Shown piece after piece: positions 2,945-55,264 of a stretch of 64,000 nt of DNA (position 1 is its first letter; each line of letters starts with the position of its first letter). The stretch is from Akanthomyces muscarius (taxonomy: Eukaryota; Ascomycota; Sordariomycetes; Hypocreales; Cordycipitaceae): the NCBI RefSeq assembly GCF_028009165.1, contig NW_026611614.1, forward strand, positions 434,001 through 498,000. Direction: 5' to 3'. The translations under genes and the position numbers were made by a program. The notes beneath the pieces were generated by a model that saw only the letters and a program-made list of their open reading frames with translations, was not told the DNA's origin and did not search any database.

Positions 2945-5900
2945 TCATACTCCAAGCTGGTTATAGCCTCGGGATGCCCGCGAGCGTGATTCATGATGAT
3001 TGTAGGCTTCACAAAATCGCAAAATAGAAAATATAGTTTTGGCAACCCCGGCTGACGCTCTTCTTTTCAGTTCAATAGGTTCAGGGAAGTCCTCCCCCAC
3101 CAAGCCGATAAGATATTCCTGAAAATTATCCGGAGAGCGCATGTCGATAAGGTCCAAAAACTCCGTGTGGGAAGGCCATTTGGCATCACCGAAGCTATCC
3201 CAAGCCTGGTCAAATCTCAGCCTAATTCTGCTCAGGATCTCCTCATAGTATGACTGCGCAAACTGGCGCTTTTGGTAGCGCTCTACACAATGTAGAACGG
3301 CTGTGAGGCATTTTGAGCTGATGGATCTTTTCTGTTGTGCGGGCACGTAGCCTTTCAGTGTGTAAATCAAACCCTCTAGTCCCATTCTCCCCATTTTCTT
3401 GCGCTCCACAGAGCTCACAATGCTTAAAAACATGTCTACTTCCTGCTCACACCTCCGCAGATTAGTTAGCTTTCGCGCAACCGTCGATCGCAGTTTTCTT
3501 AGTTTCTTCATCATGCCTTGACGAAGCTTGATGTGCTCGCTTTCCCTTTCTGCTGTGTGCTTGGAGACGAGGTTGCGCAGCCCATTGATCACTGCCGTAT
3601 TGAGTTGTTTGAGTTCGCTATTCGTAACGACGTCTGCTTTGGTCAGATTCGGATGATGCATTGTATTACCCAGCATAGCTTGAGCGAGTGCTGAGCTTAT
3701 CTGCCTGGTAACCTGCGCAATATCTTGGCTCAGTTGCTGAAGCTGCTGCGATGGCGTAACATAACTCCTATAATTAAGTGAGCCAGATGGCGAGCAATGA
3801 CGAGTGGGCGGAGATTCATTGCAGCTTTGCCAATCCTCGACCTCACCACCCTCAGAGCCTGAGATCCATGGCCGTTCTTCCCGGAATATAGCAGTGGGAT
3901 AGCTTCGTTGCCTATCATTAGGCCCTGGGGCTTGCCGCTGACCATAAAATTTTGAGTCTTGTCGACAATCAGGGGAAAAGGGACTTCGTAATATGTCTTC
4001 CGTTGTATCCCTGCACTCGTCGTTGTCAGGGGTCTGCCTGCAGGATGCTGGTTTCATCGCCCTGTAGACGCTGCGATGAGCGGCATCTTGCTGGGGCCCG
4101 TAATCTGTTCGAGTTTGGGGGATGCCGGCCTGCGAAGAGACGATCGTAACGTGGATGCTATGAGGCGAGCTTGGGGCAGCTTCCTTCTTTGAAACGTCTT
4201 TGACTCCCGTTCCAGTATTTCCTGAGCCTAGACAAAACCCGCCTGACGGGATCTCTGTCTGAGTTGCACTACTCCGCGAAACATATTTATGTGTCGTTCT
4301 CCCTTGCATAGCATTACTCTGTGAGGCGTTTCCTTGTGAGACATTCCTTTGTGGAGTGTTTCTCTGCGGCAACAATCTGACGTGCGGCCCCGGCATGCTC
4401 CTCCCGGCAGCGTTTTCCGATACAGTACTTTTCTGTGCAACATAGTTGCGTATTGAAGTTCTGTTATGTGAAGCTTCATTTGCTGAGGCATTCATATTTG
4501 TGTTTCTTACTGGCAGACTACTAAACTGCGCAGACTTGTGCGTCGAGGTAGGCCTTTCTCGACTGGAAGCTTTATATACACTAGCGTCTGACTGCCGACT
4601 TCGTCCTGGAGTGCCTTGGAACGGTGCATCTTTGTCTTTTGAGCTGGGCCCCATCCGAGAAGAGACATTGACGAGGTTTGTAGCTTCATTATATGAATTT
4701 TCAGTCTGTGGGTTATTACCGGAAATGCCGCCGGACTGTGCAGCTTCGTCTAATGGTACATCTGTGCTAATGCACGGCTGCTGTTTCGTCTCCCATGGCT
4801 TAGACCTCGCAATCGGAGGATATGTGACAGATTTCTTTCGGTCGGAAACTAGGACATCTGTGTTACCATCTAAGGGGCCTTGAGTTTCTGGGTGGGCCAG
4901 TGGGCTCTGAAAGATGCGTCCTTCTAAGTCAACGATCTTGTGGTCGTTTTTTTCAATCTTGCTTTGTAATTCCACGATATCCTGTGAATTCTCTTTAACC
5001 TGCCCTTTTAATTTCACGAGGCTCTGTGAAATTTCTTTAATCTGCCCCTGTGATTCCAAGTTATTTCGCTTCTCTTCCTCAAACCTCCCTTCCAACTCCA
5101 CGATCTTGCTCTCGTCGTTCTTTCCCTCGAGCTTCTCACTTAATTCCACAATTTGGTCGTTCTTTTTCTGAATCTTCCTTTCTAAGTCCGCGATCTTGCT
5201 CTCGTCGTTCTTTCCCTCAAGCTTCCCCCTTAACTCCACAATTTCGTCGTTCTTTTCCTCAATCTTCCTTTCTAACTCCACGATCTTGCTCTCATCGTTC
5301 TTCTTCTGAATCTTCCTTTCTAACTCCACGATCTTGCTCTCATCGTTCTTCTTCTGAATCTTCCTTTCTAACTCCACGATCTTGCTCTCATCGTTCTTCT
5401 TCTGAATCTTCCTTTCTAACTCCACGATCTTGCTCTCGTCGTTCTTTCCCTCAAGCTTCCCCCTTAACTCCACAATTTCGTCGTTCTTTTCCTCAATCTT
5501 CCTTTCTAACTCCACGATCTTGCTCTCGTCGTTCTTTTCCTCAATCTTCCTTTCCAACTCCACGACGTTATTATTATATTTCTCATTCTGTTCTCGTAAT
5601 TCCATCATTTCCTTTGTAACTTCTGTAACCTGCCTTTGTGATTCCACGATATTTTTATTCATTTCCTGAATCTTCCCGACTGACTCCGTGATATTTTGGT
5701 CCCTTTCCTTAATCTCTCCTTTTAATTTCGCTATTACAAAGTCCTTGTTCCCAATTATCTTTTGCGAGATAGCTATCTTGAGGCAGTAGTATTCGTAATC
5801 GAGCATGTCGCCTATTTCAGAACGAATAGTCTCCCGAAACCTGATTAATAGTGCTCCAAATTCTCCAATAAATTCAGGCGTCCCAATGTTAGGCATATTT

Positions 5901-8900
5901 TCCCATTGGTGTTGTATGGGTTGGCAAAAGAGTGACTGCCGCCAGGGACTGAGCAGCCTAAACCAATGCTGGATAAGTACTTCATTAACACTCCCTAAAT
6001 CAACGGTAGCACCCAGATCGACCTTAGGAGCCTTGAAGAAAGCCGATAGAATCGCGTTTGCTGATTCTGGTAGCAAGTCTGGCAGGACCTGCCCGTCCTG
6101 AACTAGTGATAGTAGCCGGAGGTAGTACTCTTCTTCGTGGCCCGGCGCTTCTATGCACTCGATGATTTGATTCGCGGTTTCCTCGCCAATGGCGGCTATG
6201 CGCTGAGATAGGTTCTTATGCTTTTGTCTTTCACCCTTTATTGGGTTCGGTTTGAGCGACTTTCTCAGGTACTCATTGGGCCCGGATGGGACGAGCAACT
6301 CACCGCGGTGCCTTGCATCTGTATTGCTTGGTACTAGTGCGTTGTTCTGGGGACGCATGGAACTGATCCTCAAATTTTTTCGCGGCGAATATTGCTTGAG
6401 CCTGGTGTCAGAGCTTCTACTCTTGATAGCGAGTGTACGCTTTTCACCAACCCTCACAGCGTTGTGCGGCTGCACTGAAATCTGCTTCTGCAAATCGACG
6501 AAGGCAACTTGCAGCACACTATTGAACGTTTGGAAGCCCGCTTCTGATGCAAGATGGCAATCATCGAATTTTGCGACCACACCACAACCACGCATGCCGT
6601 CTTTGACAATTTTGATCGTCATATCTACTGCAGATATTTGCCGTTCCATACTGGCCTGGAAACCTTGCACATCAAAGTCCGTTGAGCTTGTGGCTAGATC
6701 TATGCTGCTTTGTATTTTCGCGCATACCGAGCGTAGATGTTGTAGCTCAATGGTCTGCTCGCGCAGGACTTCGGCATAGGGCGTGCCCATTAAAGGAGAG
6801 ACTTCAATGTAGTCACTCTCGAAAGCTGACGGATCATACGTTGTCGCTGCCATTTCTTCTACCTCGAACGTTCTTCGCGGCTGAACAAGACTCTTATCCA
6901 AGACGATAGCGTCCGTATCAGGCTTCGTGATACATCCAATCGAAGGAGGAAGTGCACGAGTGTCGGCAATTTGGCACCGTTCGCGGCCGACGAGTTCCTG
7001 ATCCAAAGAGAATTCAGGATGGATGATAATCTGTTGACCGTTATAGCCCTGTTGACCGCGTTTGCCGACAGCGTTTGCACGTTTTATCAGCGCGCTTTGC
7101 GCAGAATATAGTGAAGCCCGGTTCGACTTGCGACTTGCTATGATAAGCTCTGTCACACCTTTTGACTCTTGAGTAACAAGCTGCCTATCATGATTTTGTA
7201 GTTTGCTTCGCTCACAAGACTCGCTACCTGGACTCACTATAGCTTCTGTAAGAGCACCTGTCATCTCTATATCGATATTATTGTCTTTGACTGCATTGAT
7301 CGGATTTTGTATAAGGCTGCCGTGAAATTGGTTGTTGTCAGATATGTCATTCGGATTGACTGAACATTCTATCCCATTTGTATGTTCTGACGGGATTAAT
7401 ATTGACTGTGTCGAGTTCTCCATATGAGCATTCTCCCCTGCGTGTTTATCGACTCGATCCGCAACTTCATCCTCTTCTTTCTCTGAACCACCCAAGTCCG
7501 TTTCATTATCCCCTTTCCTTCTCTTAGTTGGACGAGATTCTACTATATCGCCACCCCTTGTCCTTTTTCCCGTTTCTTTTGCCTGTGGTGTAGCCCGCTC
7601 CAGGGTACTATCTGGATTTCTCATAAATTCATTCTTCTTATATCTATCGGGAGACCTCTGAACTGTCATATCCATAAACTCCGTTTCATCGGTGCTCGTA
7701 GAATTTGTCTCGAATCTGTGTTGGCGTAGTATATCTTTGTCCTCGTTTATAATAGGCTCGTCTATAGGTTTTCCTCCTATAGAGTTTCCGATCGTAGAGT
7801 CTTTATGACCAATTTCCTTGCATTTTTCGTTGTATTTGTAATTACTAATATGACCCTTGTCCACGTGATTATCGTTCGTGGAATCCATGTTTACATCTAG
7901 CCTGAGTACTCCAGTTGGTATCTCTGAGTCGTCCTCCGGATCGTCTAAAGATGGGCAGTTTTCTGACCGTATATCTTGATTCAAATGAAGAGGCTGCGAG
8001 AACTCATATAGTGCATTCGAGTCATACAGATGCGTTGCTACGCCCTCAACAATGTCTTCTAGCTGTATGTCTAGTTCCCTATTGTCGCTATTTGGCTGAA
8101 GATTTGTTGGGGAAATTTGTTTTGTTTCTTGTATATTGATGCTTGGATGCTCGATGTTATTACTTGTAGTCCCTTGTTTCATAGGTTCTTCGTTCATAAG
8201 ATTCTGGCTTGTAGCGTCTTGTCCTGTAGAAACTTCTTTTCTAGTGTCTTGATCCACAGCTTCTATATATGCAGGCTTCGTTACAAGAATATCATTTGTG
8301 TGATGCCCACTCTTGCGGCTGTTACTGATAGTATTGCTATTTAATGCTTCGGGCTCAACTGTTTCGTATGGAGTTAACAAGTCAGTACCTGAATCATCTA
8401 AAGAGGCAGCATCCGACAATGTAATTGTCTCACAAGTCTGCGTGAAATCGACCTCCTGTTCGGCTTTTTGGTTTCGTGCTTTTTGCTCGTCTTTTTCTTT
8501 TTGCTCGTCTATTATTTGTTGTTTTTCTGATTCTTCTTGCTCGTCTAGCTCGCCCATCTCAGCGCTACTCGTCTTTGGAAATTCTTGATTTGTGATCATA
8601 ACGCCTTCACCCTCCTTCATGGGGCTCTCGTTTGTGGCTCCTCTCTCCATGAGACTCATAGGCCTCTTATTCAGCCGGGGACTTCTCCTTGGTTTAGCGT
8701 CGACTGCATACAGTAGTGTGGCAGGCTTCTTCAACTGCTCTGTCTCTTGATTTATTGAGACATTCCTGTCGTTGGGATTCTCAGCCACTTTTGTATCCCG
8801 TTCAAAGACTCCATGCTTTGCACGCCTTTGAAATGGTTGTTGGTCTGATATAATACAATCATCTTCAGGGCCATCAGCTGATTCGATCGCCTGGCGATGA

Positions 8901-9049
8901 GCTTTTGTAAGCGAGGATGGTCGGCTGCGCTCCGCTGCCTCACTTTGAATTGCTACATTGTTATCCTGGTTCTGTTCAGGGACGTTCAATATGCTTGGCT
9001 GAGACTGGGCAGTAAGTTCGTGGTCTTCAGACTGCACCTTCTCATCCAT
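2945..9049 (-). CDS. Giant hypothetical protein with 16-residue coiled-coil repeats (2,034 aa)
   Basis: One uninterrupted reading frame of 2,034 codons. The family is not recognised. Residues 1-650 are acidic, Ser/Thr/Asn-rich and probably disordered, with an RRSPRLNKR-type basic patch near 120. Residues about 740-900 look folded (an aromatic-rich segment starting FESDYIEV). A long coiled coil covers about 1080-1390; within it residues 1160-1320 are near-identical 16-residue units of the type KIVELERKIQKKNDES. Residues 1390-1800 are again low complexity, and the last 220 look helical. The size, charge and coiled coil suggest a structural or chromosome-associated protein, but nothing fixes a function. 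The final 30 codons may be read-through of a small intron, so the true C-terminus is uncertain. The upstream intergenic sequence was not analysed for promoter elements. Confidence 0.75.
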   Translation of the reverse strand: MDEKVQSEDHELTAQSQPSILNVPEQNQDNNVAIQSEAAERSRPSSLTKAHRQAIESADGPEDDCIISDQQPFQRRAKHGVFERDTKVAENPNDRNVSINQETEQLKKPATLLYAVDAKPRRSPRLNKRPMSLMERGATNESPMKEGEGVMITNQEFPKTSSAEMGELDEQEESEKQQIIDEQKEKDEQKARNQKAEQEVDFTQTCETITLSDAASLDDSGTDLLTPYETVEPEALNSNTISNSRKSGHHTNDILVTKPAYIEAVDQDTRKEVSTGQDATSQNLMNEEPMKQGTTSNNIEHPSINIQETKQISPTNLQPNSDNRELDIQLEDIVEGVATHLYDSNALYEFSQPLHLNQDIRSENCPSLDDPEDDSEIPTGVLRLDVNMDSTNDNHVDKGHISNYKYNEKCKEIGHKDSTIGNSIGGKPIDEPIINEDKDILRQHRFETNSTSTDETEFMDMTVQRSPDRYKKNEFMRNPDSTLERATPQAKETGKRTRGGDIVESRPTKRRKGDNETDLGGSEKEEDEVADRVDKHAGENAHMENSTQSILIPSEHTNGIECSVNPNDISDNNQFHGSLIQNPINAVKDNNIDIEMTGALTEAIVSPGSESCERSKLQNHDRQLVTQESKGVTELIIASRKSNRASLYSAQSALIKRANAVGKRGQQGYNGQQIIIHPEFSLDQELVGRERCQIADTRALPPSIGCITKPDTDAIVLDKSLVQPRRTFEVEEMAATTYDPSAFESDYIEVSPLMGTPYAEVLREQTIELQHLRSVCAKIQSSIDLATSSTDFDVQGFQASMERQISAVDMTIKIVKDGMRGCGVVAKFDDCHLASEAGFQTFNSVLQVAFVDLQKQISVQPHNAVRVGEKRTLAIKSRSSDTRLKQYSPRKNLRISSMRPQNNALVPSNTDARHRGELLVPSGPNEYLRKSLKPNPIKGERQKHKNLSQRIAAIGEETANQIIECIEAPGHEEEYYLRLLSLVQDGQVLPDLLPESANAILSAFFKAPKVDLGATVDLGSVNEVLIQHWFRLLSPWRQSLFCQPIQHQWENMPNIGTPEFIGEFGALLIRFRETIRSEIGDMLDYEYYCLKIAISQKIIGNKDFVIAKLKGEIKERDQNITESVGKIQEMNKNIVESQRQVTEVTKEMMELREQNEKYNNNVVELERKIEEKNDESKIVELERKIEEKNDEIVELRGKLEGKNDESKIVELERKIQKKNDESKIVELERKIQKKNDESKIVELERKIQKKNDESKIVELERKIEEKNDEIVELRGKLEGKNDESKIADLERKIQKKNDQIVELSEKLEGKNDESKIVELEGRFEEEKRNNLESQGQIKEISQSLVKLKGQVKENSQDIVELQSKIEKNDHKIVDLEGRIFQSPLAHPETQGPLDGNTDVLVSDRKKSVTYPPIARSKPWETKQQPCISTDVPLDEAAQSGGISGNNPQTENSYNEATNLVNVSSRMGPSSKDKDAPFQGTPGRSRQSDASVYKASSRERPTSTHKSAQFSSLPVRNTNMNASANEASHNRTSIRNYVAQKSTVSENAAGRSMPGPHVRLLPQRNTPQRNVSQGNASQSNAMQGRTTHKYVSRSSATQTEIPSGGFCLGSGNTGTGVKDVSKKEAAPSSPHSIHVTIVSSQAGIPQTRTDYGPQQDAAHRSVYRAMKPASCRQTPDNDECRDTTEDILRSPFSPDCRQDSKFYGQRQAPGPNDRQRSYPTAIFREERPWISGSEGGEVEDWQSCNESPPTRHCSPSGSLNYRSYVTPSQQLQQLSQDIAQVTRQISSALAQAMLGNTMHHPNLTKADVVTNSELKQLNTAVINGLRNLVSKHTAERESEHIKLRQGMMKKLRKLRSTVARKLTNLRRCEQEVDMFLSIVSSVERKKMGRMGLEGLIYTLKGYVPAQQKRSISSKCLTAVLHCVERYQKRQFAQSYYEEILSRIRLRFDQAWDSFGDAKWPSHTEFLDLIDMRSPDNFQEYLIGLVGEDFPEPIELKRRASAGVAKTIFSILRFCEAYNHHESRSRASRGYNQLGV
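5085..5570. repeat. Coding minisatellite, 48-bp units
   Basis: Direct repeats of about 48 bp (some truncated to 30-42 bp, all keeping frame) encode the KIVELERKI-type coiled-coil units of the 2,034-aa protein. At least four copies between 5230 and 5450 are nearly identical, suggesting recent expansion or homogenisation. Confidence 0.85.
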
Positions 9050-11040
9050 GAGAGTGTAGGATGAGCTAATACATAGATATGTACTTGTAAATTGATATCA
9101 ATTATAGGACAAAAATCAACGACGCTATTTATAGCTACTATCAGATAGGCATAAGCTCAAGTAGAGCGCCTATCCCGTCATACTTATCACGAATGCCGGC
9201 AAGCTTCCTATGTTTGATAAGCAGCTGCGGGCCGCTAGCTTCTAGACGGAATTGTAGTTTGTAAAGTACTTGCAGCTGTTGGGCTTGGTTCTTGCGTGCG
9301 ACACGTTTCTGCTCTAGCCGCGGCTGATTTCGTTTGTGAAGAATGCTGGCCTGGTATGCGCTTCATACGGGCTGGGCAATAATAATCCATCGAATGCAAA
9401 GGTCAGTAGCAGACTTTTTTGGGACGGCTACGGGAGGGGGGAGGTCGATGGTATGCAAGTTATATTCTTGCTAGCGGCTGACATTGTAGACACAAGTGCA
9501 CAAGGTGAAGCTCATTGCATAGGCATTGAGCAAGCATCAGGCGGAGGCATGAGCTTGCATATTCTTAGATTAGTAAAAACGACATTGTGTACCTTTGAGA
9601 TAGTTGCTGCTGTCAAGGCACCGCACTTATACGCAGTCTGGCTGGTTTGCTAGCACTCCCAGTCTGACGTGCATTACACTAGATACCCACGCGTCACGCC
9701 TTTATGGATGGAACTTTGAATGTCGTCCGTCATTCACTGCCATTTAATTTGCAGAGTAATTCCATGCCACCGCAATCGACATGATCTGATCTGCGTGGCC
9801 GAGATGTGTCACAGCATGATAGCTGGCAACAAAGCTTTTGGCAGTCGACGGTCCCGTCCAATATCGCGGGCGGGACGGGAAAAAACTCAGGTTGAGTCAG
9901 GTCTGGGGCTCTAGCCTGCGGCTTGATCATACTTACACATCCGAGACCGGCAGTCCAGCAAACAAAGCAGTGTTCTTTTAGGACTTGGTGCCGAGAGAAC
10001 GGGCCGCCGTGTCTCCCTTTGAAAACTTTCCAATGCGGAGCCTATGAGATGGACAGGATGGAGGACGATCCTCGCCCTTTTAGGTTTCACGTTGAAAAAG
10101 CGGAGCGGGGGGTTGCAGAATGTCTCACCTGTGTGCAACGGGAGACGTGATGCAGCAGCACAGATACATTAACGCGTAGCCACTCTGGTAGAGGTTACTT
10201 CCACAACATGCAGCACAAAGGCGGTTTGAGTGTCACTCTTTGCTGCTGCTCAAAAAAAAAAAAATTTGGGCGGATCTCGCGCTCGCCACTAGACCCGTCT
10301 ATTACCCTGTATCGTTTTTTCGTTTTTTCCTAGGCAAATACTGTTGACAGGTGCCAACGGCACTGGAAGAACGTTCTTCCGTATTCAGGAAGAAACATTT
10401 TCCTGTTTCGCCGAAAGCCGCAACAGAGCATTAATTGGTTGCACATATCAAAATCACGGCTGAGTTCAGCTGCTTCTCTCCCCACCAACAAGTCTCGGGT
10501 ACTCACCTAGCGGCGCTGCTTCGTACACTAAAATGGCTGCCGCTATAATCTTGTTATTAACCAAAAGTGTGACAGTCGTTTCGCTCTTATCAACTGCGTA
10601 TTGATGCTACTCTACATAATTCGTCTACCCCTGAAAAGGTTGGCCATCCGGTGTTATCGGCAACGCGGTTGATAGGCCCAAAGCACAACTGACAAAAAAA
10701 GAGGTAGCAGCTGTTAACTTAAGTCTGGTGGGGTAGACGGTAGAAGCTAGTCCTATATAGGTATAAGTTGTTCTCGTCTCCTCAGAATCTGTTCTCGTTT
10801 TATTACTGAGTAGCAGCCCTCAGTCACTGGTGCGCACCCCACTACGAAGGAGTGGGACCGTGGTGGTGGCTAGAAGTAGTCACAATGACAACTGCTACTC
10901 CAGTCGTTTCATTTGTTGTCTCTCATGATGTGTATATATACTTGAACGAATCTCTACATGGCATTCAGCAGCTTTACACTGAGCAAATCATTTCTATCAA
11001 ACTATTTAAATATCCAACGCGCCATATTAGCTGTTTCCAA
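9050..11040. other. Gene-free interval, about 2 kb
   Basis: Only short reading frames without homology or codon bias are present. There are poly(A) runs near 10252 and 10316. It probably contains promoter sequence for the flanking genes; no conserved element was recognised. Confidence 0.4.
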
Positions 11041-14126: not shown

Positions 14127-16791
14127 CTAGGCCCCTACCTGGCTGTCGTACACGTCCGCATACACTGGCAAGTGACTGCGCATGCGTAGGGCGCTCACGG
14201 CCCCACGGACTGCCACGTCGCCGCCGACCACGAAAATGGCCTGCGCCTGTCTAGACTCTGCCTCTGCCATAACCTCTCGTGCGACCGTTTCGGGGGTTTC
14301 GTGGTGCGGCACTTGGCGGAGCTCCTGCATTGCGCCGAGTTTCTTTGAAAGTTTGGCAAGATCCTGCTCCGCTGCCCACCAGACCAGGAACCGCGGCGTC
14401 GTGCCGGCCACGGCCAGGATGGCCTTGCCGATGGCAAGTATGACAACGCTCTGAAAGAAGTGCGTTGCACTCAGCACGCGACGTATGGGGAGCTGTTGTA
14501 ACCAAATGGTGTGGCGTTGGGCTGGCTGCAGGCCGGGTCCTGCAAAATCACGCCCTACAAGAGCCGTCCAAGCGTGGCCGTCACCATTGGAAGCAATAGC
14601 AACAGCGCAATGCCAGTTGCTTGTCAAGGGGCTGCTTGCCGTGACCCAGCGCCGGGCGCCAAAGGACAACGCGCGGCGGCCGCGAACCTCCCACAACTCA
14701 TGATCAGCAATGGGCCGCCGATAGCAAGCTGTCGTCTTCCGCAAGGTCATCCACGGGATGCCCAGGCCGATGAGCGGGACAAGAAGCACCCAGACATCCG
14801 CCGAGCCAAAAATGCGACGGCCAAGTGTCCAGAGCCCCTGCTCTCGACTCACGATTCGCTGGAACACGGCAGTCACCAGCGTCATGAGCCACACGGCCAA
14901 GCTGCCTGACTTGTGTATGTGGCGCAAGACTCTGCTCTGGCCTCGCGACCGGGAATACCTCAGCAGCTGCACAGAGGCTAGCATCACTGCAACGTAGGCT
15001 ACCAACAGCGTCCAGACAACCACGGCGGCGACAAACGATGACGTGACCGGGCCCGAGTCCTCACTAGCCCATCTTGAAACAGATTTTGCAATGGCAAACC
15101 ATAGTAACCAGCACATGGCCCAGACACCCAATGCTACGTGCAGCATAGTGCGATCACAGAAGACGTCCGCCATTCGGTGCTTTACCCACAGTGGCAGAAA
15201 CCCTGCTAGCGCCCCATCGCACATACATGGGCGTAGCAGCAAATATGCAAAGCTGACAGCGGCATCCTGCTGCGATAGCATGGCTAGGCAAATGTTAGCA
15301 GCAGCAAGAGAGTATGCGCTCTTGGTCTGCTGAATCGCAATTGGGACCAGGGTTAAATTCGTAACTGTAATTACCACCGACGCCAGAGGTACCATGCGCA
15401 GCCGGCGAAAGAAAGTGCTGACACCGGTGTCGTGGATAGCCCCAGCTGATAGGCGAACCTCGCGCTCGAGTGCTGAAATGTCGGCAGAACCGTCAGAGAG
15501 GATCCGCACTTGGGGTCGTTCGTGAAAGACGAGCTTTCCGTAGAGTAGTGGCCAGTTCTCGAAGAGACTGTTCTTCAACGTTGGTAGGTCAACGTAGCCA
15601 TCTAAAATGATGAAGCTGTGTAACTTGTTCGATACGCTCAATGTTACCGCAAAGAGTACGCCTCTCTCATGCATCATGGATTTTGTGGCTGAGTCGCAGT
15701 CTCCGTTGGTGTCTCTCACGAGCGCGCGTTGACGAGACTGCCACAGGCAAACGTGCACCTGTTCGCCTTCCCAGAGAGTCTTAAGGGCCGTCGATACATC
15801 ACTGTCGGGGCCGGTCGCCAGAGCGTGCAGTTCTGGAAACTCGGCGCGACGGTAAGTCGCTAAGAGGGCAGGACTGCACACAAGAACTTTGATCTATTGT
15901 ATGTTAGAGACCTTTTGCAGTGAGAGTTGAAGGATTGGGAGCGAAACAGACATGATTAATTCCATTGTAATGATGCACATCACGGAGAACCAGGGTTCCG
16001 CCATGGCATAGGCAGGCTAATACTGCTAGAAGGGCTTCCTTTGGTCAGCAAAGTTTGGTTTCAAAAGCATTGCCAGAACTGTGTTTCGTACAGAGCTCCA
16101 ATTGACAGTTGAGCACCAACACATTATCACCGGGCTTGATGCAGAGATCTTGCCCAAATCGCCCAACATTGCTCAGAAACTCTGCATGCGTCGTGACTTT
16201 CAGGTGCAGGTCTTCCACTTCGTCAACATGGGCCGCGACTTTTGTTGATTTTGCTACCTGACTTGTTAGGTAGTGTATACTGACAGCAGCGCCTTCTGGC
16301 CGAGCTTCGTCTAGAAATGGCTGGCCACTTCTAGTATCCCATTCCTCAGGTCCGATCTGGATAAATCGTACTCCTTTGATGTATTTTGGTGTTTCAACCT
16401 TTGACGTATACGCTACGTACTCGGTTTTGAAGGCTTGGCAAATGCGGGCCAGGCATTCAGTTGCGAAAGGTCTCTCAGCCTGAAGGATAATGCAATGTAA
16501 GCCGCATGACATAATGCCAAGAAGTACCGTGATAGCGTCAGAAGCATCTCTTGTGTAAAGTAGGATGACGCGTTTGGTGTTCTCCCTTAAATTACATTTG
16601 AGATACGCAGCAGTGGTTTGGGCTCTGAACGCGAGCAAACCGTACGTGGTGTCGCCATTAGTATCTCGGATTGCGACAGAGTTAGGGCTCGCTTTGTTGT
16701 AGAATTCTGAGGTCAGAGTTTTTGAAGAACCAGGCACTGGCGAAGGCGACAATTTTCTCGAAGACGGCATGGTACGGAAATAGAGTTGCAA
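14127..16791 (-). CDS. TmpL-like membrane protein: degenerate adenylation domain + TM region + FNR-like domain
   Basis: Model: exons 16791-16092, 16025-15952, 15893-14127 (846 aa; an in-frame ATG at 16770 could also start it). Intron 1 (66 nt, GTACGA, CTGAC, CTAG) removes an otherwise in-frame TGA at 16047-16045; intron 2 (58 nt) has CTAAC and TAG. Residues 1-260 match the first half of an AMP-binding domain. About 417-650 is a polytopic membrane region, and 650-846 a ferredoxin-reductase-like end with a WHCAVAIAS segment and a C-terminal PVYADVYDS. This order is that of fungal TmpL-type proteins, linked to redox homeostasis. Oddities: the phosphate loop expected as TSGSTGKPKG reads TSQVAKSTKV, roughly 150-180 residues of the adenylation core are absent, and the glycine-rich nucleotide loop is not evident. 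It may be a regulatory relic or a decaying gene with an intact frame. Confidence 0.7.
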
Positions 16792-17077
16792 GATAGCGTA
16801 GTAGGCTTATGTTGGTTGTAATATCAGGGAAAATCATTCTCAGCGCGGGGCAAGGCAACCTTTAAATACCTAGAATTGGTTGAGTATTAGTCTAGTAACC
16901 TGAGCACAGACCGAAGCCGGAACTGGTTTGTGATCAACGTTGAGCGAAAAGTGCGTTCAGCCACAGACGTCCAGTGGCTTCTTCGGCATAAATACTTCTA
17001 AGTTTCCTCGGAGCCGTTATTTTGAATGATCGATATGCGTTACTCTCTTTTTAAACTGATTGAGCGGTAGACGCTAA

Positions 17078-43039: not shown

Positions 43040-44320
43040 TTATTTTTTTACCCTCTGTCTCGATCCAGACCCCTCCGCACCAGCTTTCGATGGAGCTCTC
43101 TCTGCGGCGCTACTCCTCGTAATACCCCTTGTGGAAGTCTGCGTGGTAGACCGCGGGATTATGTTTTTAGCGGTGTCTTGAAACGCGGCCGTACTCTTCG
43201 TTGTGATAGCCTTCCACGCGGCAGCTTCCGTGGCAGCAGTATTTGTGGTAGAGGCTTTCATGGCAATCTCCTTCTCAATACTCCCTGCCGCAGAATCATC
43301 CACCGTAGCATTCGTCAGAGTTCCCTTCGTAGTAGATCTTTTCGTGAGAACCCCCGAGGAAGCCCTCGTGGTAGGCCTTGTGATACTCTTCATCGAGTCG
43401 GCCTTGCGCGCAGCAGCTTTCGGGACAATAGTAGTCGTGGTAATGTCCTGCAGGGCTGGACTTTCGATTCTCGTTGTCGCAATATTCCCTGTTACGGCAG
43501 CCTTCAACCCGGTACCGTTCGCAGCACCAGACTTCTTCGTAGTACCTGCTTTCGTGGCACCAGCCTTGGCAGCGGGGTTTGTGATAGCCTCTGTCGTCAT
43601 ATTCCCCGTCTTTGCAGCCTTTAACTGGGTAACCTTTATGGGTCCAGCCTTCACAGCACGAGCGTTCGAAGTATCAGGCTTTGCGGTGGTTTTGACGGCG
43701 GTGGTCTTCGTTAGTAGCGCTCCTCCGGAAGCCTTCGTGATGGGCCCCGCGATACGCTCCGTCGCCTTTGGCACGACGAGTTTCGACGCGGCAGCCTTCG
43801 GGGAAACAGCCTTTGGGGAAACAGCCTTTGGGGAAACAGCCTTAATGGCACCGGCCGTTTTAATGGGACTAGCACTCATGGTACCAGGTTTTGCGAGAGC
43901 TCTCTCGATTCTATTGTTGGCCATCATAGAAGTCTTCGTGGTAGTCCTCGCTGTATTCTCTATCGAAGTGCTCTGGGTCACAGTGCCGTTCGCAGAGGGA
44001 CCCTTTGTGGGACCCTTCGCGGTCCCCTTCGTGTTCTCCTTTGTTGCGGAAGCCACGGGAAGCCTCATGAACGGGGGCGTGGGAGCAGGTGTGGCTGGCA
44101 TCGGGACACCCGATGTTGCAGTCCTCTTCGCAGTCTTCGCGGTGGCCTTTTTTATTGGAGGACTACAATGTTGTTCCCTCTGAGGTCCGCCCCAAGGACA
44201 GTTCTTCCCATGCGGTTGGCTGCTACTCTCATATAAACTAACTATTCCCTGTAGGTCACGATAGATACGAGACACATACTTTCGAAGCAGGATCTTTTCG
44301 CGGCGCTTCATTGTTGACAA
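43040..44320 (-). CDS. Lys/Ala/Thr-rich basic protein, linker-histone-like composition (426 aa)
   Basis: An open frame of 426 codons starting MSTMKRREKILLRKYV. After a 50-residue head it is almost entirely K, A, T, S, P and G, with repeated PKA and SPKAV units (AVSPKAVSPKAVSPKAAA) as in H1 C-terminal tails. No winged-helix globular H1 domain is visible, so it is not a canonical H1. Very high positive charge implies nucleic-acid or chromatin binding. The opposite strand is also open for 326 codons because of the repetitive composition; the minus strand is preferred for its start, stop context and basic character. It lies 1 kb from the H3-variant gene. Confidence 0.6.
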   Translation of the reverse strand: MSTMKRREKILLRKYVSRIYRDLQGIVSLYESSSQPHGKNCPWGGPQREQHCSPPIKKATAKTAKRTATSGVPMPATPAPTPPFMRLPVASATKENTKGTAKGPTKGPSANGTVTQSTSIENTARTTTKTSMMANNRIERALAKPGTMSASPIKTAGAIKAVSPKAVSPKAVSPKAAASKLVVPKATERIAGPITKASGGALLTKTTAVKTTAKPDTSNARAVKAGPIKVTQLKAAKTGNMTTEAITNPAAKAGATKAGTTKKSGAANGTGLKAAVTGNIATTRIESPALQDITTTTIVPKAAARKADSMKSITRPTTRASSGVLTKRSTTKGTLTNATVDDSAAGSIEKEIAMKASTTNTAATEAAAWKAITTKSTAAFQDTAKNIIPRSTTQTSTRGITRSSAAERAPSKAGAEGSGSRQRVKK

Positions 44321-45344: not shown

Positions 45345-45929
45345 ATGGCGAGAACAAAACAGGCCGCTCAAAGACGTGGAGGTTACGTCGCCTCGCACAA
45401 ACCCAAAAGGAACCGAACGGGAATGGAGACAGGCAGGGTTCAAAAACGAAGGCACAGACCGAAGTTGCTCGTAGGAACTGAAAGGCCTGAAAAAGACTCA
45501 GGGCTAGGGATTCCTAGGCGCAAGTTCCAGAGTATTGTACGCAAGAAATGCGTTTTGTAGAAAGATCAGCCGTGCTGATTTGGTGACTTGACAGGTTAAA
45601 GAGATTTGCTTGAAAAATAGGTACAGCAAGAAATTTCAGACTGCTGCTCTAGCCGAGCTTCAAATGAGCCTGGACAGTTTCTTTGTAGACTTCATGGAAG
45701 AGGCCAACCGGTGTGCAGCGCACGCCAACAGAGTCACAGTCCAGCTGGTAAGTGTTATAAAGCAGCGTTTGCGACGAGTCTAACAAGAGTATATCAATTG
45801 ATGTAGAAAGATGTACGACTGGCCAGGCTTGTGATGAATAAGACGAGAACACCAGTTCACGGTTCAACGCATTTAAAAAAGCCGGAGGCGGCCACCAGGT
45901 CCGAGAGCTCTGCCGGCGGTATGATATGA
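45345..45929 (+). CDS. Divergent histone H3 variant (155 aa, three exons)
   Basis: Exons 45345-45536, 45595-45747 and 45807-45929; introns are 58 nt (GTACGC, CTGAT, ACAG) and 59 nt (GTAAGT, TCTAAC, GTAG), both phase 0. The N-terminus begins MARTKQA like H3, keeping K4, but then departs: the K9/S10 region reads AAQRRGG and the K14 and K27 sites are lost. The histone fold is clear: FQSIVKEI aligns with FQRLVREI, LAELQMSLDSFFVDFMEEAN with alpha-2, CAAHANRVTVQLKDVRLARL with the end of alpha-2, loop 2 and alpha-3. Loop 1 has the H3 length, so it is not a typical CENP-A. A 23-residue Lys/Ser-rich extension follows the normal C-terminus. Canonical H3 is 136 residues. It could replace H3 in some nucleosomes, or be a decaying copy. 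Confidence 0.85.
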
Positions 45930-54075: not shown

Positions 54076-55059
54076 TTAGTACTCCGGATATGTGATGGGG
54101 ATTCCAGCATGGTGAAACAGCCGCTTAGCCAACTCATCATCATCTCCAACCACCTCGACACACCACTTCAAAAAGAAGCCGAAATCGTACTCCGCGGCCT
54201 GATGGTTTTCTCTATATGCCTTCTTGATGAAGGTCTTGAGGTTGGAAAAATACTCCTCAATTGGATTAAAATCCGGAGAATATGGAGACAGCTCAACATA
54301 TAGCACACCTGCCTCGTCGCACATTTTCTTGATTTTTGGCGAGCGATGGACTGATGCATTGTCCCTGATTATGACCGAATTTCGTCCAGGAAATGGTTCG
54401 CAAAAATGCAGAAGTTCGGTCATGAAGTCTTCGATCAAATACTTGTCAGTCGGGCCCTGGTATACCCGGTACATGAGTACACCGTTCTGGGTAAAGGCTG
54501 GCAGTATCTGCCAGCGCCTCCCGCGCTTCAACTTGTTGTATTTTATGGGTGTTTTGCCCTTTGGTGCCCGGCCTGAGCGACGGTGGCAGACTTGAGTATC
54601 ACAGCCTGACTCATCAAAGTAAACGATATGGAAAGACTCGACTTGAAGTTTTGCCAGTGTGTATAGATAATAGTCTCGAAGATCTTCGTCTCGCTGCTGG
54701 GCGATGCGACGCATTTTCTTTCGCGGCCAGTCCTTCAAAGCTCGACCGAGTGCGCTATGCGAGATCTCGACGTCGAACTTCTCCCGCAACAGCTGTACCA
54801 TCTCTTCAACGTGCAGCTCGGGATCATCAGTGAGTCTGTCACACAGGTATTTCTTCATGTCGGTTGTTATGCGGCTGCGGCGCCCCGCGCGGGCTCTACG
54901 TCGCGGCATTTCGGACTCGGGTCGTTCACGTTCGCGTTGGTATCGCTGGACAGTTCGAGCGCTACACAAGGTAGCAGAAACAATATGTTGAGTCGAGAAA
55001 CCCTTCTCTAACATAGCAAAGATTTGACTCCGGATTTCAGCATTTAATACTGGCGCCAT
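54076..55059 (-). CDS. Tc1-type DD34E transposase (327 aa)
   Basis: Residues 1-125 hold the DNA-binding part, with a helix-turn-helix (IRSQIFAMLEKGFSTQHIV) and a second HTH after the basic RRRARAGRR hinge. The catalytic triad is D149 (VYFDESG), D233 (IIRDNASVH) and E268 (DFNPIEEYF), giving the DD34E spacing of Tc1. SPYSPDFNPIE is the classic late motif. Length and frame are normal with no stop or shift, so the enzyme may be active. It catalyses cut-and-paste excision and insertion at TA. The gene starts about 205 bp inside the right TIR end. Confidence 0.92.
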   Translation of the reverse strand: MAPVLNAEIRSQIFAMLEKGFSTQHIVSATLCSARTVQRYQRERERPESEMPRRRARAGRRSRITTDMKKYLCDRLTDDPELHVEEMVQLLREKFDVEISHSALGRALKDWPRKKMRRIAQQRDEDLRDYYLYTLAKLQVESFHIVYFDESGCDTQVCHRRSGRAPKGKTPIKYNKLKRGRRWQILPAFTQNGVLMYRVYQGPTDKYLIEDFMTELLHFCEPFPGRNSVIIRDNASVHRSPKIKKMCDEAGVLYVELSPYSPDFNPIEEYFSNLKTFIKKAYRENHQAAEYDFGFFLKWCVEVVGDDDELAKRLFHHAGIPITYPEY

Positions 55060-55264
55060 GATTAGTTTTGTAACTGCCGTTTCTGGCGTGGTTGGTGGAA
55101 AGGGCAGAATCGAAGGAGGCTGTGGACAAGAACAACTTCCAGTGGTTAATTTTAGCGTCTGTTACAGGGGCATGGTGGAAATACAAGCGTGGTACCTGCA
55201 GTGTCAGCGGCCAAAAATAGCGAGTGGCCTTCCCCACCTTACTACTAAAACTAACTAAAAGTCG

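Follow-up and report, generated by a model that had tools for sequence, protein, structure and literature searches.

A divergent, intron-bearing histone H3 gene in Akanthomyces muscarius, probably encoding an H3-derived variant

An intact gene for a divergent H3

The stretch of DNA analyzed here (the window; 64,000 nucleotides, C7:434001-498000, where C7 is contig NW_026611614.1 of the 36.2 Mb, 12-contig assembly of Akanthomyces muscarius) carries, at positions 45345..45929 of its forward strand, what we take, with a probability of roughly 0.55, to be a bona fide, intact gene that encodes a rapidly evolving histone variant derived from H3 and whose product is still likely to form nucleosomes or tetramers. 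Few proteins are as conserved as histone H3; judged by the sequence features laid out below, the locus is probably a real H3 variant gene that was once under constraint.

The structure of three exons with canonical splice signals proposed in an earlier note on this DNA was reproduced exactly, including all GT-AG boundaries and the product of 155 amino acids (pI about 11). Exon 1 (45345..45536) encodes the tail (MARTKQ...), a rewritten alpha-N region and the start of alpha-1, ending with ...FQSI at the position of the canonical H3 intron. Intron 1 (45537..45594; 58 nt, GT-AG) coincides in position and phase (between L70 and V71, phase 0) with the single intron of the canonical H3 gene of the same genome (C5:1506.2-1506.7 kb, with a divergent H4 gene about 2 kb away). 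Exon 2 (45595..45747) starts with VKEI... and encodes the end of alpha-1, a loop 1 of H3 length, alpha-2, and loop 2 (HANRVTVQL); it is followed by intron 2 (45748..45806; 59 nt, GT-AG), which is absent from the canonical gene, and by exon 3 (45807..45929), which encodes KDVRLAR of alpha-3 and then a 31-residue C-terminal extension up to the stop codon. By eye, branch-like motifs are seen in both introns, CTGAT in the first and CTAAC in the second. The unspliced frame contains stops, so that splicing is required for the product. The start codon lies in the context GACATGG.

The product is related to H3. The Pfam profile search suggested in the earlier note yielded a match to the Histone family (PF00125) at 63.9 bits (cut-off 26.4), and a PDB search produced 174 distinct sequences at E≤0.001, with H3.3 on top (5.4e-16, residues 1-125; among the best 60 of the 174), in agreement with the claim that the full H3 fold is encoded. 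BLASTP comparison with the canonical H3 of the same genome gave 49 identical (38%) and 75 positive positions of 129, and the fold itself, 62 residues from FQ to LAR, aligns without gaps, with 28 identities. These scores, the canonical intron position and the collinearity up to residue 122 exclude a chance match, and the description of the gene as a divergent H3 paralog holds on the level of identity, the intron position and the placement with H3 in the tree discussed below. Because intron 1 lies exactly at the canonical H3 intron, the variant is a duplicate of genomic DNA rather than a retrocopy; as far as exon structure can tell, it is the result of duplication of an intron-containing H3 gene.

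A rewritten tail on a retained core

The divergence is distributed unevenly along the protein. In the alignment with the H3 of the same genome, residues 1-6 are almost unchanged (5/6 identical), whereas identity drops to 8/31 over residues 7-37 (with 4 gap positions) and 7/25 over residues 38-62 (3 gap positions); within the fold, it amounts to 5/16 in alpha-1, 1/6 in loop 1, 13/30 in alpha-2 and 9/14 in loop 2 and alpha-3 combined. The N-terminal ARTKQ, including K4, is retained, as claimed from the sequence before. The losses that had been listed, namely the K9/S10, K14 and K27 contexts, are seen as well: K9 and S10 are both replaced by R and K14 by V, and the context of K27 is lost, with an R opposite K27 in an alignment that inspires no confidence at this site. 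That list proved too short, however, given that K36 (replaced by Q), K79 (by R) and the alpha-N region, which has gained proline and glycine and lost residues, are gone too. Further replacements are K23 to P, K64 to R, and K115 to N; a lysine is aligned with each of K18, K37, K56, and K122. With 8/31 identity over residues 7-37 and with K9, K14 and K36 replaced, the protein is a variant and not a canonical H3.

The residues C110, H113, R116, V117, T118, D123, and L126, which we take to be central to the H3-H3' bundle of the tetramer and to the DNA contact of loop 2, are all aligned and identical between the variant and the H3 of the same genome. The C-terminal extension exists as described, but its supposed richness in lysine and serine is mild at best (3 K, 4 S, and 4 T among the 31 residues).

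Compared with the canonical H3, the variant thus combines the shared full fold, MARTKQ start and L70^V71 intron with 38% identity, a rewritten tail and alpha-N region, a second intron, the extension and, as detailed below, weak codon bias.

Signs of constraint, codon usage and possible decay

Among the 34 substitutions in the 62-residue core, 14 (41%) are BLOSUM-positive, compared with 25% on average under neutrality (P 0.02), and identity to H3 is higher at positions where H3 and CenH3 agree (22/41) than elsewhere (6/21; P 0.053). When the whole H3 frame was evolved neutrally to the same identity, 3.1% of the 2000 runs remained free of stops, compared with 25% for the 62-residue core alone. 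The pN/pS ratio between H3 and the variant is 0.56 (95% range 0.39-0.81), a value that the canonical branch, under strong constraint itself, confounds and drives; it is therefore not counted as proof. The other three comparisons, each weak singly, moderately favor past purifying selection on the variant protein. Codon usage (GC3 0.54 and 59 different codons, versus GC3 0.77 and 34 codons in the canonical H3 gene) is only weakly biased, which suggests a low expression level of the variant.

The alternative that fares best, itself rather unlikely in our estimate, is a decaying H3 paralog or a recently silenced pseudogene whose frame is still open by luck. Such decay would fit the very long branch of the variant in the tree, the weak codon bias, the failure to find a close homolog in the protein database, and the presence of a transposase and of weak, possibly fragmentary enzyme matches in the surroundings, but the 155 codons contain no stop, both introns are canonical and well formed, the substitution pattern is conservative, the start context is GACATGG, and the stop-free outcome was rare in the neutral runs of the whole frame; the lack of stops, the intact introns and the conservative substitutions make a pseudogene less likely. 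With regard to the database evidence, none of the 135 candidates was a homolog of the variant at E≤1e-3 in a search that requires shared 5-residue words; given that this search listed no canonical H3 either, it is taken to exclude close relatives alone.

Proposed function and significance

Under the preferred reading, that of a functional H3-derived variant, an intron-containing H3 gene would have been duplicated to give rise to the variant gene, whose product would be made at a low level or under special conditions and would most likely pair with H4 to form nucleosomes or (H3-H4)2 tetramers. We infer that the protein would be deposited into chromatin, with a possible effect on local silencing. 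Wherever it is deposited, K9, K14, K36, and K79 marks would not be writable and marking of K27 would be unlikely, whereas K4-type marking could still occur; the broken alpha-N helix would be expected to loosen DNA at the nucleosome ends. A more far-reaching scenario, which we consider improbable, is that there is no separate standard CenH3, or that a second H3-like histone marks its own chromosome: a low-level nucleosome, K4-competent and blind at K9, K27, and K36, would shield the encoding region from heterochromatin or aid the transmission of a selfish chromosome.

An intact H3 that lacks most of the modifiable sites and keeps ARTKQ offers a natural experiment on the marks that a nucleosome requires. 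If expressed, the variant would provide a handle on the escape of fungal regions, perhaps accessory chromosomes, from heterochromatin, and it also enlarges the small set of fungal H3 variants other than CenH3.

Is the gene carried by an accessory chromosome?

In Metarhizium robertsii, a horizontally transferred accessory chromosome carries genes for two putative histones and for a number of histone modifiers, according to a conference abstract (PMC10687773). By analogy with the role proposed there for the histones, the variant could belong to the chromatin genes of an accessory chromosome and aid the persistence or transfer of that chromosome; an accessory-chromosome home of the gene is possible, and the proposition as a whole appears quite doubtful. 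C7 (777,485 bp) has a telomere at base 1; its last 10 kb contain no telomeric array. The same contig encodes a SET-domain protein with a weak AWS match (C7:674401-674763), which, together with the extra histone, makes one small contig resemble the M. robertsii case as described in the accessible text (PMC10687773), with the difference that two putative histones are reported there and one histone match was found on C7 in the assembly-wide PF00125 search. The tRNA count on C7 (0 of 51 hits, with about 1.1 expected; 63 of 781 candidates scored) points weakly in the same direction. On the opposite side, C7 shows no enrichment of chromatin modifiers (SET, 1 of 30 matches; JmjC, 0 of 5 hits), and a NIF-type phosphatase domain at its right end, where 4 of 8 frames were scanned with Pfam, could belong to an ordinary core gene. 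Moreover, the telomeric end of C7 is 100% identical to those of C8 (over 4 kb) and C9 (over 6 kb), and C8 carries a tRNA and a Taf6-like frame (named by eye, below the Pfam cut-off), so that a foreign origin of C7 cannot be read from the shared end. The ends of C1, C3, C6, and C11 form a near-identical set, from which those of C7 and C9 diverge by several percent; the subtelomere-type argument for a foreign origin of C7 was abandoned given that the seemingly core contig C8 has the same end.

Several features of these contigs were recorded in passing. The in-frame stop in the SET gene of C7 is, by eye, compatible with a short GT-AG intron. At the left end of C7, an open reading frame of 1361 amino acids encoding a reverse transcriptase (L010:2806-6891) lies within a telomere-proximal repeat. 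Nine frames with a SET domain, all of the same score and each containing two TAGs, are located near the ends of C1, C2, C3 (two), C4, C5 (two), C6, and C11, six of them about 9.2 kb from the contig end.

Relation to the centromeric histone

The variant shares an H3-type fold combined with an altered tail with CenH3 (CENP-A). A strongly diverged centromeric H3 of A. muscarius is another, very improbable, identity for the variant. The case for it comes mostly from the rest of the genome. A PF00125 search of the assembly at E≤10, in which all 15 candidates were scored, gave 15 matches, namely H3, H4, a second H4, H2A, H2B, H2A.Z, the H3 variant and other histone-fold proteins (identities named by eye); neither this search nor two CenH3 queries (one of them a database protein) found a CenH3, the H3-like loci being the canonical H3 and the variant. 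CENP-C is present in the assembly; a search for the Scm3 family found no match anywhere in it, which is uninformative. That no CenH3 was found is most simply put down to a missing stretch, given the runs of N in the assembly (in C10, 7,500 of the initial 10,000 bases).

The protein itself looks like H3. In addition to the ARTKQ tail, it has a loop 1 (E73-F84) of 12 residues, as in H3, F at position 84, again as in H3, and no RRIRGxWG end; by contrast, the 12 fungal CenH3s that we aligned have a longer loop 1, W at position 84 and the RRIRGxWG terminus. Identity to a CenH3 is 29%, over a stretch read through the introns, versus 38% to H3. Phylogenetic analysis of the fold, a comparison called for in the earlier note, was performed on 18 sequences, namely the variant, three H3s (from the same genome, yeast and human) and 14 CenH3s; five H3-like database sequences, apparently chimeric gene models, were included in a first tree and dropped from the second. 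The variant, on a very long branch, grouped with its own and the yeast H3, separately from the human H3 and all 14 CenH3s (support 96/97). Forcing the variant together with CenH3 made the tree 2.24 log units worse, and the AU test did not reject this grouping (p-AU 0.098). Kinship with CenH3 is thus disfavored without being rejected. The earlier statement that loop 1 is not lengthened stands, and so does the H3-like aspect of the loop; the conclusion that the protein is not CENP-A-like had been reached too easily, considering that no CenH3 was found elsewhere and considering the AU result.

Known H3-like genes of fungi, transposons and RIP

Divergent H3-like genes are already known in fungi, and the variant is new in its details. 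In the available part of its description, H3L of Pyrenophora tritici-repentis is a divergent protein, neither H3 nor CenH3, with changes in the tail and helices; it is represented by ESTs and is carried in 26 copies by a hAT transposon (PMC3538342). The likeness to our variant, drawn from that description rather than from sequence, ends at the setting: the 5-kb variant locus was found in one copy in a genome search, the gene has introns, and the inverted repeats within 7 kb of it are weak (14-23 nt, 76-93% complementary), in place of the repeated transposon with terminal inverted repeats that characterizes transduplicated H3L. The extra H3 copies captured by hAT elements in Pseudocercospora fijiensis and its relatives are, in the accessible text, intronless, inactivated by RIP and present in hundreds of copies (PMC6710886), unlike the single, intron-bearing gene without a RIP signature described here. 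Capture of the variant by a transposon was dropped as an explanation given the single copy and the lack of good inverted repeats, and a RIP origin of its divergence was rejected because the RIP indices are ordinary (TA/AT of 1.0 at the locus and 0.89 in the window). No further described case was recognized among the entries listed from the open-license literature on fungal histone variants and accessory or supernumerary chromosomes or transposons.

Neighborhood of the variant gene

A neighboring open frame, at 43040..44311 on the reverse strand, is oriented divergently, its first ATG being 1034 nt from that of the variant, and would encode a basic protein of 423 amino acids (pI about 11), rich in Ala, Thr, and Lys and resembling a histone H1 tail, with no Pfam hit. 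A six-frame scan of the window with the H4, H2A, and H2B proteins of the same genome gave matches at chance level or of low complexity only, and no Rfam family matched the window at the gathering threshold. Among the 54 frames of at least 150 amino acids in the window, 30 were scanned with Pfam; the matches include a transporter, a methyltransferase, a rhodopsin-like protein, RRM, bZIP, DUF7514, and a transposase, with no clear housekeeping gene among these 30 frames. The transposase, a 361-amino acid frame at 54076-55161 on the reverse strand, combines DDE_3 and HTH_32 domains and is of the Tc1/mariner type. On the same strand, a 2050-amino acid frame (2945-9097) contains repeated, coiled-coil-like IVELERKIEEKNDESK units and matches no Pfam family above the cut-off, and two adjoining frames at 14127-16806 yield weak, below-cut-off matches to AMP-binding and DAGK-like domains, which may represent one interrupted or intron-split enzyme gene. 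For one neighboring protein, five relatives were listed at E≤1e-100, the three named ones being from Cordyceps, with 54-55% identity.
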